64,000 nucleotides of DNA. It comes from an uncultured Gammaproteobacteria bacterium. GTDB taxonomy: Bacteria > Pseudomonadota > Gammaproteobacteria > GCA-002705445 > GCA-002716945. The notes under the pieces are model-generated. The model was not told where the DNA came from. It was given only the letters and a program-made list of their open reading frames with translations, and made no database searches. The stretch covers positions 62,001-126,000 of the forward strand of contig CABYTF010000001.1 in NCBI GenBank assembly GCA_902521725.1, in the 5' to 3' direction. The translations under genes were made by a program, and so were the position numbers. Below, piece by piece: positions 4,281-64,000 of this stretch (the first letter of the stretch is position 1; each line of letters starts with the position of its first letter).

Positions 4281-4717
4281 TAATTTTCTTTTCTTTTTTC
4301 AAGCTCGTTTTGATAGATAGTATGAAAGTCTATGGGGGATAAAAATAAGGGAGGGAATCCACCCTTTTGTATAATGCTAGATATATTTTCTCTTGCATAT
4401 GGGAATACTATCTCAGCACAGTGAACGTTGAGAAATCTTTTTTTGAGATCTTCATTATCTGTTGAAATGAGAAAAACTCCACATTGCTTTAACTCAACTA
4501 AATACAGAGTCTTATCATCTACTTCCGCTTTGACATTGAAAGTGAGTGTCAATTCATGTAAATCATCTGTCAATTTATTTATATTAGATTCAAAGTTAAA
4601 TCCAACCTTCGGGGACGATGACATATTTGTAAAAACATCGGGTGTCATGGGTGATTCAAATGAAAGATCTTTCAGATATACTCTTTGAATATTAAATTGA
4701 ACTTTATTATCGTTCAT
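4280..4717 (-). CDS. secB: Protein-export chaperone SecB
   Basis: Cytosolic tetrameric chaperone that keeps preproteins unfolded and delivers them to SecA. The beginning (FNIQRVYLKDLSFESPMTP) is the family signature, and the later segments CGVFLIS and CAEIVFPYARENISS fit SecB. The 145-residue length is normal. It overlaps yibN by 4 bases (ATGA) and gpsA by one. The order yibN-secB-gpsA is the enterobacterial yibN-grxC-secB-gpsA order without grxC. Confidence 0.95.
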   Translation of the reverse strand: MNDNKVQFNIQRVYLKDLSFESPMTPDVFTNMSSSPKVGFNFESNINKLTDDLHELTLTFNVKAEVDDKTLYLVELKQCGVFLISTDNEDLKKRFLNVHCAEIVFPYARENISSIIQKGGFPPLFLSPIDFHTIYQNELEKRKEN

Positions 4718-5121
4718 TTTCCCTCCACAAGAGGAAGATTATTTTCAGTCCAAGATTGAATCCCGCCCTCTAAGTAAAGTACTTTCACAGAGTTGTTTTT
4801 CGATATTTTCTCTGCACTGGACACACTTGTCATTTCATCTTTATCATATACAACCACTTCAGTGAAATCTATTTTTTTTGTGCTTGATGAGTCATGGAGT
4901 ATAGCCTGTGAGATGTGTCCTTTTTTATATTCAGATTTTTCTCTAGTATCAAGAACAACAATCTGACTTTCATTAATTTTAGTAACAAGGTCACTACAAT
5001 TAATTCCTTTATATTTTTTAGTAAAGTTTTTAATCTCAAAAGAAATGATGAGATAAATAAAAATAAATAATGCTACTGATAAAACTGGATGATTAAGTAT
5101 AAATTCTAATGAGTGATCCAT
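4714..5121 (-). CDS. yibN: YibN-like membrane-anchored rhodanese-domain protein without catalytic cysteine
   Basis: One N-terminal membrane helix (about residues 12-28) followed by a cytoplasmic rhodanese fold: VVLDTREKSEYKKGHI, then VVVYDKDEMTS, then VLYLEGGIQSW and NLPLVEGK. The C terminus closely resembles E. coli YibN, and the position just before secB agrees. Active rhodaneses carry a cysteine after the VVV strand (VVVCDTG in E. coli YibN). Here that loop has no cysteine; the only one is Cys42, outside the active site. The protein therefore probably does not transfer sulfane sulfur and may act as a binding or scaffold domain. The gene lies 8 bases downstream of the arsR-type gene. Confidence 0.85.
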   Translation of the reverse strand: MDHSLEFILNHPVLSVALFIFIYLIISFEIKNFTKKYKGINCSDLVTKINESQIVVLDTREKSEYKKGHISQAILHDSSSTKKIDFTEVVVYDKDEMTSVSSAEKISKNNSVKVLYLEGGIQSWTENNLPLVEGK

Positions 5122-5129
5122 TGTATGGA

Positions 5130-5471
5130 TCAGTTATGTTTGGAACAGAAAACTTCTCTCATCATATCAATCAACTTTAATGTTTTAAAATCACTGACTT
5201 TGTAAAAAACTTTATTAGCATCTTTTCTTGCAGAAAGAATGCCCTTGTCTCTAAGTATCGCTAGATGTTGAGAGATATTACTTTGAGATGTACCAACATT
5301 ATCAACTATGTCTTGTACGCTAAACTCACCCTCACCAAGTTTGCATAATATCATCAACCTCAAAGGATGTGACATTGCTTTCAATGATCGTGAGGCAGTT
5401 TCAATATCTCTTTCTTGATCTGCAGAAGAATAACCAATCTTTTCTTCTAACTGTACTTGTTCGTTTTCCAT
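5130..5471 (-). CDS. ArsR/SmtB-family regulator, SqrR/BigR-like cysteine pair
   Basis: Winged-helix dimeric repressor of 113 residues. Helix-turn-helix region: FSVQDIVDNVGTSQSNISQHLAILRDKGIL. The metal-binding ELCVC motif of ArsR/SmtB is absent. Two cysteines remain, Cys43 (MILCKL) and Cys109 (VFCSKHN). They are 66 residues apart, the same spacing as the redox/persulfide-sensing pair in SqrR (Cys41/Cys107) and BigR (Cys42/Cys108), so a thiol- or sulfide-responsive role is inferred. It heads the yibN-secB-gpsA operon and is divergent from ctpA. A TATAAT box ends 6 bases before the ATG, which predicts a leaderless transcript. Confidence 0.88.
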   Translation of the reverse strand: MENEQVQLEEKIGYSSADQERDIETASRSLKAMSHPLRLMILCKLGEGEFSVQDIVDNVGTSQSNISQHLAILRDKGILSARKDANKVFYKVSDFKTLKLIDMMREVFCSKHN

Positions 5472-5477
5472 TGTATT

Positions 5478-5483
5478 ATTATA
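5478..5483 (-). promoter_or_regulatory. -10 box for leaderless arsR-operon transcript, overlapped by AT-rich dyad
   Basis: TATAAT on the minus strand. Seven bases beyond its last base is the A of the arsR-type ATG (5471), so the start codon should coincide with the transcription start. No good -35 is visible. A small dyad, ATATA-CC-TATAT (5481-5492), overlaps the box and could be an autoregulatory operator. Confidence 0.5.
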
Positions 5484-5528
5484 TACCTATATTAGATGAA
5501 ACTAATAATAAATCTAGTAATAAAGTGC

Positions 5529-5534
5529 TATTAT
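5529..5534 (+). promoter_or_regulatory. -10 box for ctpA, near-leaderless
   Basis: TATTAT (5 of 6 to consensus) on the plus strand. The predicted transcription start is 5541, one base before the ctpA ATG at 5542. No Shine-Dalgarno is possible in such a transcript. The -35 is not recognisable. Confidence 0.4.
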
Positions 5535-5541
5535 TAGCCTG

Positions 5542-6732
5542 ATGATTAATAATAATAAACCCATAAAAATTGTACTTTTATCTGCATTCTTTGCTTTAAT
5601 TTGTGTACCTGGATACTCATCTGATAATGATGTGCCAACAGAAAAAATTCAGCAGTTTGTTGACGTGTATAAGAAAATCAAAGATCAGTATGTTGATGAG
5701 GTAGATGATACTACTCTCTTTAACTACGCAATTGAGGGGATGGTCTCTAATTTAGACCCCTATTCAGATTATCTTTCTAAGGATGATTTTTCTGAGCTAA
5801 AAATCGGGACAACTGGAAAATTTGGTGGTATTGGGATAGAAATTACAATGGATGAAGGCTTCGTAAAAATTATATCACCAATTGATGACACGCCTGCACA
5901 AAGAGCGGGGCTTAAAGCTGGTGACCTAGTGATTGAAGTAGAGGATATTTCACTCAAGGATAAATCTATCAATGATGCTGTAAAATTAATGCGTGGTGAA
6001 CCTGGCACAAAAGTAAAAGTAAAAATTTTGCGAGAAAAAGAAGAAGCGCCACTAGATTTTGAATTAGTAAGACAAATCATAGTATCTAAGGGGATTAAAA
6101 CCGAAATTTTCAATGGTGAAGTTGGATATCTGAGGCTATCTAGTTTTCAATCTAACTCAACCTCAAATGTTAGAAAAGCAATATATGACTTAAGAAAGAA
6201 AAGCGGAAATATGATGGTTGCGCTTATTCTTGACCTTAGAAACAATCCAGGTGGTGTGCTTGGTTCTGCTGTCGGCATATCTGATTTATTTTTGAAATCC
6301 GGCAAGATTGTTTACACAAAGGGACGTACAAATAATTCTGATTTAGAATATTTTGCTAACAGTGAAGATATCCTTGAGGGTTTACCTCTGTATGTTCTAA
6401 TAAATGGTGGTTCTGCATCTGCCTCTGAGATTGTAGCAGGGGCTCTTCAAGATCATAAAAGGGCGATAATTTATGGAGAAAAATCTTTTGGCAAAGCCTC
6501 CGTTCAATCGATACAGGAAATGATGGATGGGTCTGCCCTCAAACTTACAACTGCTAAATACTACACACCCAATGATAGGCATATACATGAGAATGGCATC
6601 TCACCAGATGTAGAAATCGAATTCAAAGAGCTAGAGGTACCAAGCTCATTAGTGCCTGACCCTTACAATACTGATAATCAAATCATTTCTATCTTAGAAG
6701 ATTATAGGACAAATATTTCTCAGCTTAGATAA
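5542..6732 (+). CDS. ctpA: Carboxy-terminal processing peptidase (S41 family)
   Basis: Periplasmic protease that trims or degrades proteins from their C termini. Signal peptide about residues 1-26 (KIVLLSAFFALICVPGYSS). PDZ domain about 85-170, including GGIGIEI and AGLKAGDLVIEV. Catalytic domain: RNNPGG (233-238), Ser293 in GGSASASEI and Lys318 in SFGKASVQ, the 25-residue Ser-Lys spacing of the family. 396 residues is typical of the short CtpA form. In many gammaproteobacteria this gene sits beside the yibN/secB region, as here. Divergent from the ArsR-type gene with only 70 bases between them. Confidence 0.94.
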   Translation: MINNNKPIKIVLLSAFFALICVPGYSSDNDVPTEKIQQFVDVYKKIKDQYVDEVDDTTLFNYAIEGMVSNLDPYSDYLSKDDFSELKIGTTGKFGGIGIEITMDEGFVKIISPIDDTPAQRAGLKAGDLVIEVEDISLKDKSINDAVKLMRGEPGTKVKVKILREKEEAPLDFELVRQIIVSKGIKTEIFNGEVGYLRLSSFQSNSTSNVRKAIYDLRKKSGNMMVALILDLRNNPGGVLGSAVGISDLFLKSGKIVYTKGRTNNSDLEYFANSEDILEGLPLYVLINGGSASASEIVAGALQDHKRAIIYGEKSFGKASVQSIQEMMDGSALKLTTAKYYTPNDRHIHENGISPDVEIEFKELEVPSSLVPDPYNTDNQIISILEDYRTNISQLR

Positions 6733-7764: not shown

Positions 7765-7770
7765 TATAAT
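7765..7770 (+). promoter_or_regulatory. -10 box for leaderless SHOCT-gene transcript
   Basis: A perfect TATAAT whose predicted transcription start (7777) is exactly the A of the next gene's ATG. There is no Shine-Dalgarno and no clear -35. Confidence 0.5.
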
Positions 7771-7776
7771 GCACAT

Positions 7777-8094
7777 ATGAGAAGTATCTTATTCATAGCT
7801 TTAGCTTTGTTATCATTGCAAGTTATTGCTGATGATAAAGCAAGACCGGCACCTCATAATAAGATAGGTCTTACCAAACAATCAGCAGCAGAAAAGAAAG
7901 ATTCATTTTTATATAAGATTTTTAACAACGAATCTGATCTTATGGGGTCGAGTAATAAGAATCAGAGTTTCAATGATAGTAATACTGAAATACTATCGCA
8001 GATTGAGAAACTAGCTGATCTACGAGATCGTGGAATTATCACTGAAGCTGAATTTAGTGATAAGAAATCGATATTATTAAATAAAATCCAATAA
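7777..8094 (+). CDS. Exported protein with C-terminal SHOCT domain
   Basis: 105 residues. A signal peptide (RSILFIALALLSLQVIA, cleavage about residue 18) precedes a polar, low-complexity linker. The C-terminal helical hairpin (ILSQIEKLADLRDRGIITEAEFSDKKSILL) is a SHOCT domain, a short module found at protein ends and thought to mediate oligomerisation or binding. The function is unknown. It is preceded by a leaderless-type promoter, suggesting it can be expressed apart from the upstream hydrolase. Confidence 0.75.
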   Translation: MRSILFIALALLSLQVIADDKARPAPHNKIGLTKQSAAEKKDSFLYKIFNNESDLMGSSNKNQSFNDSNTEILSQIEKLADLRDRGIITEAEFSDKKSILLNKIQ

Positions 8095-13837: not shown

Positions 13838-14651
13838 TGACGTACGGGAGTCCCTGTAGTGATTTATGAAGAGTTTGGTTATGTTGCTTTCTATTAGATT
13901 GTATTAAAGACATAGTCATAAACTCAAAAAATGACTTAAAAAATATAATCATCTTTTCACTCAATGTAGTATTTATTTTTTCTTTGAAATACTTTTGTTG
14001 TTCTCTTAAAATTTTGTGACCGATAGCCTGATAGAGCCTCAATGCGTAGAGTATAGAAAAGCGCGATCTGATTGGTATAAGTTTGATACCACTTAAGGCG
14101 CTATTGTAATAATCATCAGCGAGTTTGATTAGCTTCGTTACAACGGATAGTATTTCTGCGTCTGTCATAGATGAAATTTCATTATCTCCTATCATGGTGC
14201 TTGGTAAGTATACCCTGCCACCTCTGTAGTCAATTAGGACATCCCTGCATATATTTGTTATTTGCATAGCAATTCCTAAGTCTATTGCGTAATATCTTGC
14301 TAGGGTACCTTTGATAGATAATACATCACACATCATTAGCCCGACACAGCCAGCTACTTTATATGAATACTTCAGCAAGTCGTTAAGATCTTTAATACTA
14401 GAACGATTGATATCGGAATTAATGCCATTTTTCAATTCCCTTACGACACTGCCATCTATCCCCAGTTTGAGAATATATTCTTCTAAGTCATTTGTGTCAT
14501 CCTTCCTATCAAGGTCCACGTTATCATCATAAAGTCTACAAAAAGAGTAAACTTTAAAAACATCCCTCCTCACGTATTTAGGCAGGAGCCTAGAAGCAAT
14601 GTAGAAAGTTTTGCTATTTGATTTAAGTACATGTTCAAAAGTTCTAGGCAT
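13824..14651 (-). CDS. crtB: Phytoene synthase
   Basis: Condenses two geranylgeranyl diphosphates to phytoene. Aspartate-rich motifs: YDDNVD in the first half, and ITNICRDVLIDYRGGRVYLP in the second. The start is placed at the ATG 14651 (MPRTFEHVLKSNSKTFY), giving 275 residues. The frame runs open for 59 more codons upstream, but that stretch lies inside crtI and does not resemble CrtB. The ATG overlaps the crtI stop by 8 bases (ATGCCTAG). Confidence 0.93.
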   Translation of the reverse strand: MPRTFEHVLKSNSKTFYIASRLLPKYVRRDVFKVYSFCRLYDDNVDLDRKDDTNDLEEYILKLGIDGSVVRELKNGINSDINRSSIKDLNDLLKYSYKVAGCVGLMMCDVLSIKGTLARYYAIDLGIAMQITNICRDVLIDYRGGRVYLPSTMIGDNEISSMTDAEILSVVTKLIKLADDYYNSALSGIKLIPIRSRFSILYALRLYQAIGHKILREQQKYFKEKINTTLSEKMIIFFKSFFEFMTMSLIQSNRKQHNQTLHKSLQGLPYVNETV

Positions 14652-16113
14652 TATATTTAAGTATAAGCTTTTCAGTAACTTTTGCAGAGGATAATACACC
14701 CGGTACACCTGCTCCTGGGTGACTGCCTGCACCAACAAAATATAAATTGTTGAGTTCTTGTGATTTATTTGAGTATCTAAAATAAGCAGATTGTCTGAAA
14801 ATAGGCTGTATACCAAAACCACTTCCATTAAATGAATTCAATTCGTTCTCAAAATAGTCAGGTGTAACAAAGAACTGGTCAACAATATTAGATTTAAGAT
14901 CAGGTAGTACAGTCTCGCTCAGTATGCTTATAACGTGCTGACAGAACTCTTCTCCTTTTTCATTCCAGTCAATATTACTTTGATTATTAGCCACTGGCGC
15001 AAGAACATAAAAAGAATCGCAACTATTTTGAATGTTTTTCTTATCAGTTGCAGAGGGTCTATGAAGATACAGACTGGGATCGTTGATATAAATTTTATTA
15101 TCAAATATATCATCAAGCAGTTCTTTATGTCGTTTGTTAAAAATTATAGTGTGGTGCTGAACATCACTATAAATCTTTTTTGTAGAGAAATAAAAAACGA
15201 ACAGTCCCATTGAATGCTTCAAGATAGATTTTTTATTGAATATTTTCTTAGGTGCAATTTTAAGTATATTCTCATAGAAATGTGATGGATCTGCATTACT
15301 CACCACTAAATCAGCCTCCAAAGTACCCTCAGAAGTCTCTACTGTTTTAATACGCTTATTGTCATGATTAACATTTAAAACTTCACAGTTAGTCTTATAC
15401 ACTATTCCCTCTTCATCAAACAACTTCTTAAAACCACTCACAATAGAGCGGGTCCCGCCATCTCCATAATAGACACCCCATTTCCACTCTAAATATTGAA
15501 TGAGAAGGTAAATAGATGTAGTTGTATATGGATTACCACCTACTAAAAGTGGATGCATGCTGAGTGCTTTTACAAGATTTTCATTATGAAGGTATGACTT
15601 TACAGAACTATGTACTGATTTGTAAAACTTGATCCTCATCAACTCGGGAACATAAGGAAACATGCTTTGAATATTCTCAAAAGGATAATCCGCCAGTTTA
15701 AGATACGCCGTATCAAAAATACGTTTGGAATGTTTCAAAAGTCTAAGATATCCGATAGCATCCTCTTTTGAATAGTTTTTCTTGATTTGATTAAGCATCC
15801 CTTTAAGTGATGATCCATAGTCAAAAGAAGATTTATCACTAAATACAAATCTATAATAAGGCTTAACTCTTAATAGATTAAAGTAATCTCTCGAATCTTT
15901 ATCGAAAAGATCAAATATTTCATTTAATAGATATGGAGCGGTAATTACCGTAGGTCCAGCGTCATATTCAAAACCATTATGATAGAGAGTTCTGGCTCTG
16001 CCACCCAGATTGTCTAGCTTTTCTAGAACAGTGACATCATGTCCCATTGCTTTTAGTCTGCAAGCAATTGCTAGGCCACCGAAGCCTGAACCAATAACAA
16101 TAGTTTTTTTCAT
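14644..16113 (-). CDS. crtI: Phytoene desaturase
   Basis: FAD enzyme that desaturates phytoene to lycopene. N-terminal FAD motif IVIGSGFGGLAIACRL, followed by LDNLGGRARTLYHNGFEYDAGPTVIT. The C-terminal signature YFVGAGSHPGAGVPGVLSSAK is strongly CrtI-like. 489 residues is normal. Its ATG is 10 bases downstream of an 11-bp hairpin behind the proteorhodopsin gene, and has no free Shine-Dalgarno (an AAGGAG lies inside the hairpin). It is therefore probably expressed at a lower level than the rhodopsin. Confidence 0.95.
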   Translation of the reverse strand: MKKTIVIGSGFGGLAIACRLKAMGHDVTVLEKLDNLGGRARTLYHNGFEYDAGPTVITAPYLLNEIFDLFDKDSRDYFNLLRVKPYYRFVFSDKSSFDYGSSLKGMLNQIKKNYSKEDAIGYLRLLKHSKRIFDTAYLKLADYPFENIQSMFPYVPELMRIKFYKSVHSSVKSYLHNENLVKALSMHPLLVGGNPYTTTSIYLLIQYLEWKWGVYYGDGGTRSIVSGFKKLFDEEGIVYKTNCEVLNVNHDNKRIKTVETSEGTLEADLVVSNADPSHFYENILKIAPKKIFNKKSILKHSMGLFVFYFSTKKIYSDVQHHTIIFNKRHKELLDDIFDNKIYINDPSLYLHRPSATDKKNIQNSCDSFYVLAPVANNQSNIDWNEKGEEFCQHVISILSETVLPDLKSNIVDQFFVTPDYFENELNSFNGSGFGIQPIFRQSAYFRYSNKSQELNNLYFVGAGSHPGAGVPGVLSSAKVTEKLILKYNA

Positions 16114-16123
16114 TTAGACATAA

Positions 16124-16149
16124 TACAAGGAGCGCAAGCGCTCCTTGTA
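16124..16149 (-). terminator. 11-bp hairpin between proteorhodopsin and crtI
   Basis: Arms TACAAGGAGCG and CGCTCCTTGTA around a 4-base loop. In transcript direction no T-run follows, so complete termination is unlikely; a partial terminator or mRNA-stabilising 3' structure is more plausible. The upstream arm contains AAGGAG, which would be the only Shine-Dalgarno-like sequence near crtI, and the stem sequesters it. Confidence 0.65.
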
Positions 16150-31541: not shown

Positions 31542-32399
31542 TCATTTCTTGTTGGTATTCCTTATCTTTTCAATAATGCCCTGAAGTTCGTTCATAGTTG
31601 AGTACTTTATGCTAATGACTCCGCCACTTTTGCTATGTTTAATATTTATTTTGGCTCCCAGTGACTCAGACAGCTGCCTCTCAAGTATAGCTGTATCAGG
31701 ATCCTTGTTTTTGGACTGAGTCTTAGAATTTGGTTTTGCAAGATTTTCAACAGCTCTGACAGATAGATTTTTACTCACTGCTTCTCTCAGTATCCGGGAT
31801 TGCTCATCAGGAGGCAAAGTCAATACTGCTCTTGCATGACCCATAGTAATTGTTCCGGTTCTTAATTGTTCTTTTCCATATTCTGATAAGTCGTTCAGCC
31901 TTATTAGATTAGTGACATGCGTTCTTGATTTACTTATGTATTTCGAAACATCCTCATGACTCATTCCAAATTCATTTACCAAGCGAAGCAAGGATTCTGC
32001 CTCTTCCATAGAATTTAGGTCCTCCCTTTGGACATTTTCAACAATAGATAAAACTGCTGAAGTTTTTTCATCGGCATCAATTATTACTGCATCGATTGTG
32101 TCCTTCTTCAATAGCTGTGTAGCTCTCCATCTTCTTTCCCCTACTATGAGCTCAAATTTTTCTCCCATTTTTCTAACAACTATTGGTGAAATTTGTCCAT
32201 TCTCATTTATCGAATCTGCAAGCTGTTTAATTTCATTTTCATGGAATACTTTTCTTGGTTGGTGCCTGTTTCTCACTATCTTATGCACCGGTAAAGATGA
32301 TGATGATTGGCGCTGATCGGAAGTTTCAGATTCTGTAACGCGGCGAGCACTGCTAAGAAGTGAATCTAGCCCTGAACCCAATGCCTTGCGTTTAGTCAT
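31542..32399 (-). CDS. parB: Chromosome-partitioning protein ParB
   Basis: CTPase clamp that loads at parS sites near the origin and organises it. N-terminal KALGSGLDSLL, the CTP-binding region with IVGERRWRA and ENVQREDLN, and the helix-turn-helix MSHEDVSKYISKSRTHVTNLIRL. 285 residues is normal. 42 bases after parA. Two parS-like sites lie about 10 kb away inside recF. Confidence 0.95.
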   Translation of the reverse strand: MTKRKALGSGLDSLLSSARRVTESETSDQRQSSSSLPVHKIVRNRHQPRKVFHENEIKQLADSINENGQISPIVVRKMGEKFELIVGERRWRATQLLKKDTIDAVIIDADEKTSAVLSIVENVQREDLNSMEEAESLLRLVNEFGMSHEDVSKYISKSRTHVTNLIRLNDLSEYGKEQLRTGTITMGHARAVLTLPPDEQSRILREAVSKNLSVRAVENLAKPNSKTQSKNKDPDTAILERQLSESLGAKINIKHSKSGGVISIKYSTMNELQGIIEKIRNTNKK

Positions 32400-32441
32400 A
32401 TATCAAATATAACCCTAGACATCATTTTTGTACATAACTGT

Positions 32442-40705: not shown

Positions 40706-40714
40706 TTATCCACA
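40706..40714 (+). promoter_or_regulatory. Perfect DnaA box in dnaA-dnaN gap
   Basis: TTATCCACA on the plus strand, 29 bases after the dnaA stop. Confidence 0.65.
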
Positions 40715-40814
40715 GGATACACACGCTGAAAGAACTATCAAACACATGTTAGTCAACATATTTTTATCGTACTAGTGCTATAAAAATAATAAGTTAGAAC
40801 ACATAAAAATAACA

Positions 40815-40820
40815 TATAAT
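40815..40820 (+). promoter_or_regulatory. -10 box for leaderless dnaN transcript
   Basis: A perfect TATAAT; 7 bases beyond its end is the A of the dnaN ATG (40827). TTAGAA at 40794-40799 is a possible -35, but the spacer would be only 15. There is no Shine-Dalgarno before dnaN. Confidence 0.5.
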
Positions 40821-40826
40821 AAATAT

Positions 40827-41933
40827 ATGAAAATAATCTTTAAGACAAAAAGTTTGATAGACAAAATAAAAAATATTGCTCCAACTGCTGAAGCGAAGCA
40901 AACACTCCTAATCTTAGGCAACGTCGTGATTAAAATAGAAAACAGTAAAGCTTACTTCACTGCCTCAGATCTTGAAATACAGGTATCCTCATCTATAGAA
41001 TGTGAGTCAGATAATGATTGCGAGTTTTCACTCCCAGCAAGGAAACTACTTGAAATATTGAGTGCGTTATCTAATTATGAATCTGTTACCTTTTCTGTTT
41101 CAGACAGTAAAGTAGATATCACAGCAGGAAAAAGTAAAATATCACTACCGAATTTACCTGCAGTAGATTTCCCATATATGGACCTTAATCAGCTTGATAA
41201 TGAAACAGATATAGCGAGCGATGACATGACAAATATCATCAATAAAACATCTTTTGCTATGGCTTATCAAGATGCAAGACACTTCCTCAACGGTCTACAT
41301 CTATGTACTGAGGGTGGTAAAATCGTTTCAGTATGTACAGATGGACATAGACTAGCGAAGTATAAATCTCAGGCAGATGGGGATGACAGTCTCTCTATAA
41401 TAATACCAAGAAAAGCTATCTTAGAAATTAATAGAATTATGAACTCTTTTAACGACAATAAACAGAATATAATCAAATATAGCTACAATTCAACGATGTT
41501 TCATATTCAGATTAACGATTATGCCATTATATCGAAGCTCATAGAGGGGAATTATCCAAATTTCAATAAAGTTATACCAGAGAGCACATCTTCCGAAATC
41601 ATAGTTAACAAGATTACTCTGAAAAACTCATTAAATATCATTTCAAAGGTAGTAAACCAGCAGTATAAAGGTGTTAAGTTAACACCTAGCAACAACACTA
41701 TGCATTTGATATCCAGCAATACTGACAGTGAAATTGGTGAAGACCAGATTGATGTAGAATATTCAGGTGAAGAAATGTCTATAGGATTTAATATTTCATA
41801 CTTGCAAGACGTCATAGATACACTCGAGGGAGATATTATACATATTTGTGTTAACGACCAAAATTCTGGCTGCGTAGTCCAAGACAATCAAGACCATGAT
41901 TCTACTTTTGTGATTATGCCTATGCGTGTCTAG
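40827..41933 (+). CDS. dnaN: DNA polymerase III beta subunit (sliding clamp)
   Basis: Ring-shaped processivity clamp. 368 residues, with three repeats of the clamp fold; recognisable segments are LEIQVSS, ARKLLEILSAL, VCTDGHRLAK, IEGNYPNFNKVIP and the C-terminal FVIMPMRV. Normal length. Preceded by a leaderless-type promoter and followed 2 bases later by recF. Confidence 0.96.
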   Translation: MKIIFKTKSLIDKIKNIAPTAEAKQTLLILGNVVIKIENSKAYFTASDLEIQVSSSIECESDNDCEFSLPARKLLEILSALSNYESVTFSVSDSKVDITAGKSKISLPNLPAVDFPYMDLNQLDNETDIASDDMTNIINKTSFAMAYQDARHFLNGLHLCTEGGKIVSVCTDGHRLAKYKSQADGDDSLSIIIPRKAILEINRIMNSFNDNKQNIIKYSYNSTMFHIQINDYAIISKLIEGNYPNFNKVIPESTSSEIIVNKITLKNSLNIISKVVNQQYKGVKLTPSNNTMHLISSNTDSEIGEDQIDVEYSGEEMSIGFNISYLQDVIDTLEGDIIHICVNDQNSGCVVQDNQDHDSTFVIMPMRV

Positions 41934-52288: not shown

Positions 52289-52411
52289 ATGAATAGATAT
52301 AAAAAATTTATTTTACTTATAGTATTGTCTACATCTCTGATGCTTATTTATGGTTGTGGCAACAAAGGCCCACTCTCTCCTGCGGAAAATATCATTTCAA
52401 TTAGTAATTAA
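52289..52411 (+). CDS. lptM: LptM (YifL)-like small lipoprotein
   Basis: 40 residues. A lipoprotein signal (NRYKKFILLIVLSTSLMLIYG) is followed by the lipidated Cys and the LptM signature CGNKGPLSP. LptM helps assemble and oxidise the LptD/LptE complex that exports lipopolysaccharide. Position directly upstream of lysA-dapF-xerC is where the family usually sits. It ends 2 bases before the lysA start. Confidence 0.88.
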   Translation: MNRYKKFILLIVLSTSLMLIYGCGNKGPLSPAENIISISN

Positions 52412-63306: not shown

Positions 63307-64000
63307 ATGCTTAAAAGTTTATTATCAAAGATTTCCCCTGAAGGGTATTATAAATTTACTAGCGCCATAATACCATGGCTTCTTACCTTATCGCTATTTT
63401 TCATCTCTTTTGGTTTATATCAAGGACTTTTTGTAGCTCCACCTGACTATCAACAGGGAGATGCTTTTCGTATTATGTATGTTCATGTCCCAAGTGCATG
63501 GATTTCCCTATTCGCTTATTCTGTTGTTTTTTTCTCTGCAATTGTATCTTTGATATGGCATGTGAAAGTATATGACGTAATTCTACTTGCTTCATGTAAG
63601 CTCGGGGCGCTTTTCACTTTGTTTACTCTTCTCACTGGAGCTATTTGGGGAAAGCCAATGTGGGGTACATGGTGGGCATGGGACGCAAGATTAACATCAG
63701 AATTGATACTTTTCTTTTTATATCTTTCGATATTACTTTTACATGGCTCTTTCGAAGATAAAAAGAAAGCTGCTTCCGCAGTGAATATTTTAGCTATAAT
63801 TGGTTTTATAAATATCCCAATCATACATTTCTCTGTCGAATGGTGGAACACGCTGCATCAGGGTCCATCTGTAATTAAGTTGAGTACACCTAGCATTGCT
63901 GGGGAAATGTTAACACCACTTATTATCACTGCTTTGGGGTTTACATTATTTTTCTTTGGAGCTATGTTGAAATCTTCTCAAAATATTTTACTAGACTACG
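63307..64000 (+). CDS. ccmC: Heme exporter protein CcmC (3' truncated by window edge)
   Basis: Membrane component of cytochrome c maturation; it loads heme onto CcmE. About 231 residues are visible. Motifs: MYVHVPSAW (first heme-binding His), the tryptophan-rich WGKPMWGTWWAWDARLTSELI, and HFSVEWWNTLHQG (second His). Strong match to E. coli CcmC. The frame stays open to the last base. Neither ccmA nor ccmB precedes it; a possible TATTAT box (63289-63294) suggests its own start. Confidence 0.95.
   Translation, partial: MLKSLLSKISPEGYYKFTSAIIPWLLTLSLFFISFGLYQGLFVAPPDYQQGDAFRIMYVHVPSAWISLFAYSVVFFSAIVSLIWHVKVYDVILLASCKLGALFTLFTLLTGAIWGKPMWGTWWAWDARLTSELILFFLYLSILLLHGSFEDKKKAASAVNILAIIGFINIPIIHFSVEWWNTLHQGPSVIKLSTPSIAGEMLTPLIITALGFTLFFFGAMLKSSQNILLDY

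Follow-up and report, generated by a model that had tools for sequence, protein, structure and literature searches.

Among described systems, three come closest to the arrangement analyzed here. In the survey of Zheng et al. 2011 (PMC3160421), genes with a TATAAT-like signal located some 10 bp ahead of the start codon, designated TA-led, were recognized with a dinucleotide-shuffle test and were commoner among first than among operon-distal genes. According to this survey, such leaderless genes occur in 15 of 239 gammaproteobacterial genomes, mostly of Xanthomonadales and Legionellales, and account for about 3-6% of the genes there (3.0-5.7%). In the Deinococcus-Thermus group, a -10 motif lying about 6-7 bp before the open reading frame acts as the promoter for leaderless mRNA, an arrangement present in nearly one third of the genes of D. 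radiodurans (PMC12340547). In Salmonella Typhimurium, dRNA-seq revealed 16 exactly leaderless mRNAs together with 17 whose leaders are 1-6 nt long (PMC3293720).

The window studied here, a stretch of 64,000 nucleotides from the genome of an uncultured, probably marine gammaproteobacterium, belongs to a genome in which the same kind of arrangement is found. Our preferred reading, to which we assign a probability of about 80%, is that some 20-25 of about 930 genes, nearly all of them at the start of a transcription unit, have sigma-70-type promoters in which 6 nt separate the end of the -10 box from the start codon, and would therefore be transcribed as leaderless mRNAs. The signal, its behavior in the shuffle test and its preference for first genes are like those of the TA-led genes, the spacing is like that in Deinococcus-Thermus, and the predicted set, like that of Salmonella, whose 5′ ends lie at the A of the ATG or 1-6 nt before it, amounts to a few tens of genes. 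In contrast to the described cases, the lineage is an uncultured marine one, the proportion is about 2-3% of genes instead of nearly a third, and the leaderless mRNAs, which in Salmonella were measured, are predicted.

Boxes in the window and in the whole genome

The original prediction drew attention to three perfect TATAAT boxes, and their coordinates and exact spacing agree with our own reading, each box occupying positions -12 to -7 relative to its ATG. One of them (40815..40820, + strand) precedes dnaN, the gene for the DNA polymerase III beta clamp (40827..41933, +; Pfam PF00712/PF02767/PF02768), another (7765..7770, +) precedes a gene for a SHOCT-domain protein of 105 aa (7777..8094, +; PF09851), and the third (5478..5483, -) precedes the ATG at 5471 of a gene for an ArsR-family regulator (HTH_5) of 113 aa (5130..5471, -; PF01022). 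With 6 bases between box and ATG, transcription from the seventh base after the box would begin at the A of the ATG, which for dnaN puts the predicted transcription start at 40827. Two candidates that had not been listed before show the same distance of 6 nt, namely parB (31542..32399, -; PF17762/PF02195) with TATATT at 32406..32411 (-), and a flavin amine oxidoreductase-like gene (14644..16113, -; PF01593) with TATTAT at 16120..16125 (-). These five genes are the predicted window members of the leaderless set.

Four near cases had also been proposed, and all of their boxes are present as listed. The TATTAT of ctpA (5529..5534, +; ATG at 5542) implies a leader of 1 nt and makes this gene a weaker candidate, while the TAAAAT of an orphan ParA gene implies 4 nt, and the TATAAT of the lptM open reading frame (ATG at 52289) and the TATTAT of ccmC (ATG at 63307) imply 6 nt each. 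Pfam agrees with the gene names of ctpA (S41 peptidase), ParA (ParA/MinD-type ATPase) and ccmC (cytochrome c assembly). The lptM frame has no Pfam match; it contains a lipobox and the sequence GCGNKGPL, and we presume it to belong to the LptM family.

The window contains no surplus of exact TATAAT (91 occurrences, with 107 expected), so the question is one of spacing alone, and it was addressed across the genome. The assembly comprises 970,813 bases in 11 contigs, of which 74.5 kb are N and 896 kb readable. A home-made gene finder, built on a 3-periodic Markov model and taking no account of upstream signals, predicted 936 genes together with their start codons; among these, 380 were taken as first genes (upstream gap of at least 30 bp) and 507 as operon-internal (same strand, gap below 30 bp). 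Box counts were compared with 400 dinucleotide shuffles of the upstream sequence and with other upstream positions. In first genes the exact box stands at -12 to -7 in 14 cases against 1.23 after shuffling, and in none of the 400 shuffles was a count of 14 reached at any position; elsewhere the mean is 1.7, with a maximum of 5 from -38 to -7. When one mismatch is allowed, 33 boxes are found at -12 against 9.1 in shuffled sequence (0/400); because about 9-11 of the 33 are expected by chance, no individual weak box can be taken as certain. At this position, neither exact boxes (1 against 0.8) nor boxes with up to one mismatch (7 against 6.5) are in excess in operon-internal genes. The excess thus amounts to 12 genes with an exact box and about 22 with up to one mismatch, or 6% of first genes and 2-3% (2.4%) of all genes. 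Outside the window, exact boxes precede genes for YccV-like, GltD-like oxidoreductase, TsaD, PhoX, Fur-family regulator, penicillin-binding protein, AccA and BolA products.

Counting -10 boxes by their distance to the start codon against shuffled sequence therefore gives an excess at a single position, -12, as the original prediction would have it. Expressed as implied leader length, the maximum is sharp at 0 nt (14 against 3-5 at neighboring positions) and a slight excess of TATAAT exists for 1-3 nt (11 against about 5). For first genes no TATAAT excess was seen at implied leaders of 4-6 nt, so that ParA, lptM and ccmC, although their boxes are present, have no support from the position statistics. 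Two other ways of counting were set aside. The motif TAnnnT was not used because it is mildly in excess in operon-internal genes as well (23 against 14 at -12), and fitting a 6-mer by EM at every fixed position mainly picked up the Shine-Dalgarno signal.

The expected lack of Shine-Dalgarno sequences is borne out in 13 of the 14 exact-box genes, which have no Shine-Dalgarno-like 4-mer; in the exception, arsR, the AGGT lies upstream of the box and falls outside the predicted transcript. Across the genome, Shine-Dalgarno 4-mers are modestly above shuffles (22% against 11% in first genes, 32% against 20% in operon genes), and by the 4-mer and box tests most genes are neither Shine-Dalgarno-led nor leaderless. 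The 3′ end of 16S rRNA, sought for an anti-Shine-Dalgarno check, could not be located in the readable sequence. We were unable to detect enrichment of a TTGACA hexamer upstream of the boxes at a spacing of 16-18 bp (2.85 against 2.66 of 6 matches, not significant) or consistent enrichment of an extended -10 (TG) at the boxes. From what is established for leaderless mRNAs, the most likely course of events is that a sigma-70-type RNA polymerase would bind the -10 box, the -35 being weak by consensus, that transcription would begin at the A of the ATG, and that ribosomes would recognize the 5′-terminal AUG without a Shine-Dalgarno helix.

Conservation in related genomes

In a congener, G007, the peak of exact boxes at -12 recurs (10 against 1.8), and the box at -12 is kept in orthologues in 15 of 16 first-gene pairs, against 113 of 175 for boxes placed elsewhere (Fisher p = 0.012). 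Between the two genomes the box columns are 99% identical, positions -6 to -1 are 78% identical and the same columns in genes without a hit 82% (p = 3e-7); genes with a hit are also the better conserved in most columns around -36 to -27. A promoter would be expected to show just this, a conserved box followed by less conserved bases up to the ATG. For the individual window genes, G007 has an identical box at the amine-oxidoreductase gene, the same box spacing at ctpA, and a conserved TAAAAT at ParA. The parB box and its spacing are kept both in G007 and in G010, a member of the same family but of a different genus (ParB 77% and 49% identical, respectively). Matching coordinates of pattern and protein hits in G001, G002, G003 and G008 extend the comparison: the arsR box and spacing are kept in these four and in G007, and the SHOCT spacing is kept in G002, G003, G007 (with a GTG start) and probably G001, and is absent in G008.

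The dnaN promoter could be aligned with those of six relatives, whose DnaN proteins are 61-85% identical. A conserved block, TAAAAATAACATATAATAnATAtATG (40804..40829, +), stands out in this alignment, 21 of the 25 columns preceding the ATG being invariant, compared with 32 of 124 in the region upstream of them; the box is invariant in the six relatives, and its distance to the ATG is equal in all seven sequences. In G010, dnaN has an implied leader of about 2 nt. The block was also considered as a repeated operator and rejected as such, there being no second exact copy and the seven other sites with up to three mismatches looking incidental. The gap between dnaA and dnaN further contains a perfect DnaA box, TTATCCACA, at 40706-40714, which is conserved in relatives, as is the sequence CTGTTAATAA directly after dnaA. 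In G006 the sole dnaN match (G006:C1:228527-229306) is 41% identical and has many in-frame stops, unlike the parB and ArsR of that genome, which are 96-98% identical.

Just upstream of the arsR -10 box, between the divergent arsR and ctpA starts, lies an inverted repeat, ATTAG-N6-CTAAT (5491..5506, -), an operator candidate that may control both genes. G010 keeps this inverted repeat and the TATAAT, with its ATG 6 nt further on and hence 12 nt from the box; here the leader has changed but the promoter has been retained, which argues that the element acts as a promoter independently of the start codon. The ArsR-type protein has two cysteines, C43 and C109, and their spacing of about 66 residues may liken it to the persulfide-sensing ArsR regulators BigR and SqrR. 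A rhodanese gene (4714-5121, -) adjoins arsR. Another inverted repeat, CAAGGAGCGC-TT-GCGCTCCTTG (16126-16147), abuts the TATTAT before the amine-oxidoreductase gene, and G007 has the identical sequence; this repeat may be a terminator of the upstream gene or an operator.

Alternative explanations and the place of the lineage

In an AT-rich genome TATAAT is common, and boxes near start codons could simply have been picked from many. Of the boxes at -12 with no more than one mismatch, chance would indeed account for about one third, and TATAAT in the window is no more frequent than expected, so for a single weak box such an origin is possible; for the set as a whole it is refuted by the 400 shuffles, the recurrence of the peak in G007 and the conservation of the boxes, and we consider it extremely improbable. 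It is also conceivable that the box works in translation, as an A/U-rich, S1-binding or low-structure stretch, and is not a promoter. The AT-rich bias reported near -20 to -10 of genes without a Shine-Dalgarno sequence could stem from leaderless promoters or from S1 binding (PMC5397173) and fits either view, and the mild excess of TAnnnT in operon-internal genes would agree with a role in translation. Operon-internal genes, whose translation takes place in the same cell but which require no promoter at that place, have no excess of exact or one-mismatch boxes; moreover, the peak spans a single base, conservation of the box does not extend to the 6 nt before the ATG, and the arsR element of G010 is retained at another distance from the ATG, all of which makes a translational element very unlikely. 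A subtler alternative accepts the boxes as promoters but places the starts a few bases off, giving leaders of 1-3 nt instead of none. The slight excess of boxes at these distances and the dnaN of G010 speak for it, yet the maximum lies exactly at 0 nt, and we regard it as unlikely, though less so than the preceding two.

The original prediction had further suggested that leaderless transcripts seem frequent here and could reflect genome streamlining. The genome is small, its median intergenic gap is 9 bp and the peak is present, as this proposal would have it. However, no gene-level peak is seen (4 against 3.3) in G010, which at 1.05 Mb and 29% GC is just as small and richer in AT, and this ties the signal to the genus more than to small genomes generally. 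Pattern searches across a genome collection, which were not gene-aware and had one alternative spacing as control, gave 386 occurrences of TATAAT-N6-ATG against 226 of the frame-matched N9 form in 9 genomes of the genus (ratio 1.71), 732 against 602 in 16 other genomes of the family (1.22) and 2889 against 2605 in 182 other genomes of the class (1.11); the ratio thus falls from the genus to the rest of the family while genome sizes are alike. We therefore consider streamlining an improbable cause. In the class members G025, G026 and G072 the N6 form is rarer than N9 (48/67, 8/19 and 13/28), which may be avoidance of leaderless placement or scatter. A literature search on leaderless genes in connection with SAR86 or with genome streamlining returned nothing direct.

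As for frequency, an excess of about 22 genes, or 2-3% of all, does not bear out the description of leaderless transcripts as frequent; the proportion is ordinary among lineages that have leaderless genes. That they are rare for Gammaproteobacteria holds insofar as they are uncommon, but they were already known there, both from the 15 of 239 genomes in PMC3160421 and from Salmonella (PMC3293720). The leaderless arrangement is thus of a known kind and only moderately frequent here, and its signal is genuine and has been conserved in close relatives. A more speculative extension, which we think doubtful although less so than the alternatives above, is that core growth genes (dnaN, parB, bolA, accA, tsaD, the penicillin-binding protein and the fur- and arsR-type regulators) have been selected to stay leaderless in this genus, as a lineage-specific expansion of 5′-AUG-dependent initiation in which dnaN would be uncoupled from dnaA through its genus-conserved promoter block.

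With our results, a genus of uncultured marine gammaproteobacteria joins the lineages in which leaderless genes form a measurable class. The similarly small relative that has no such signal speaks against small genome size alone as a source of leaderless genes. Both the list of genes and the conserved dnaN promoter can be checked directly in marine metatranscriptomes.
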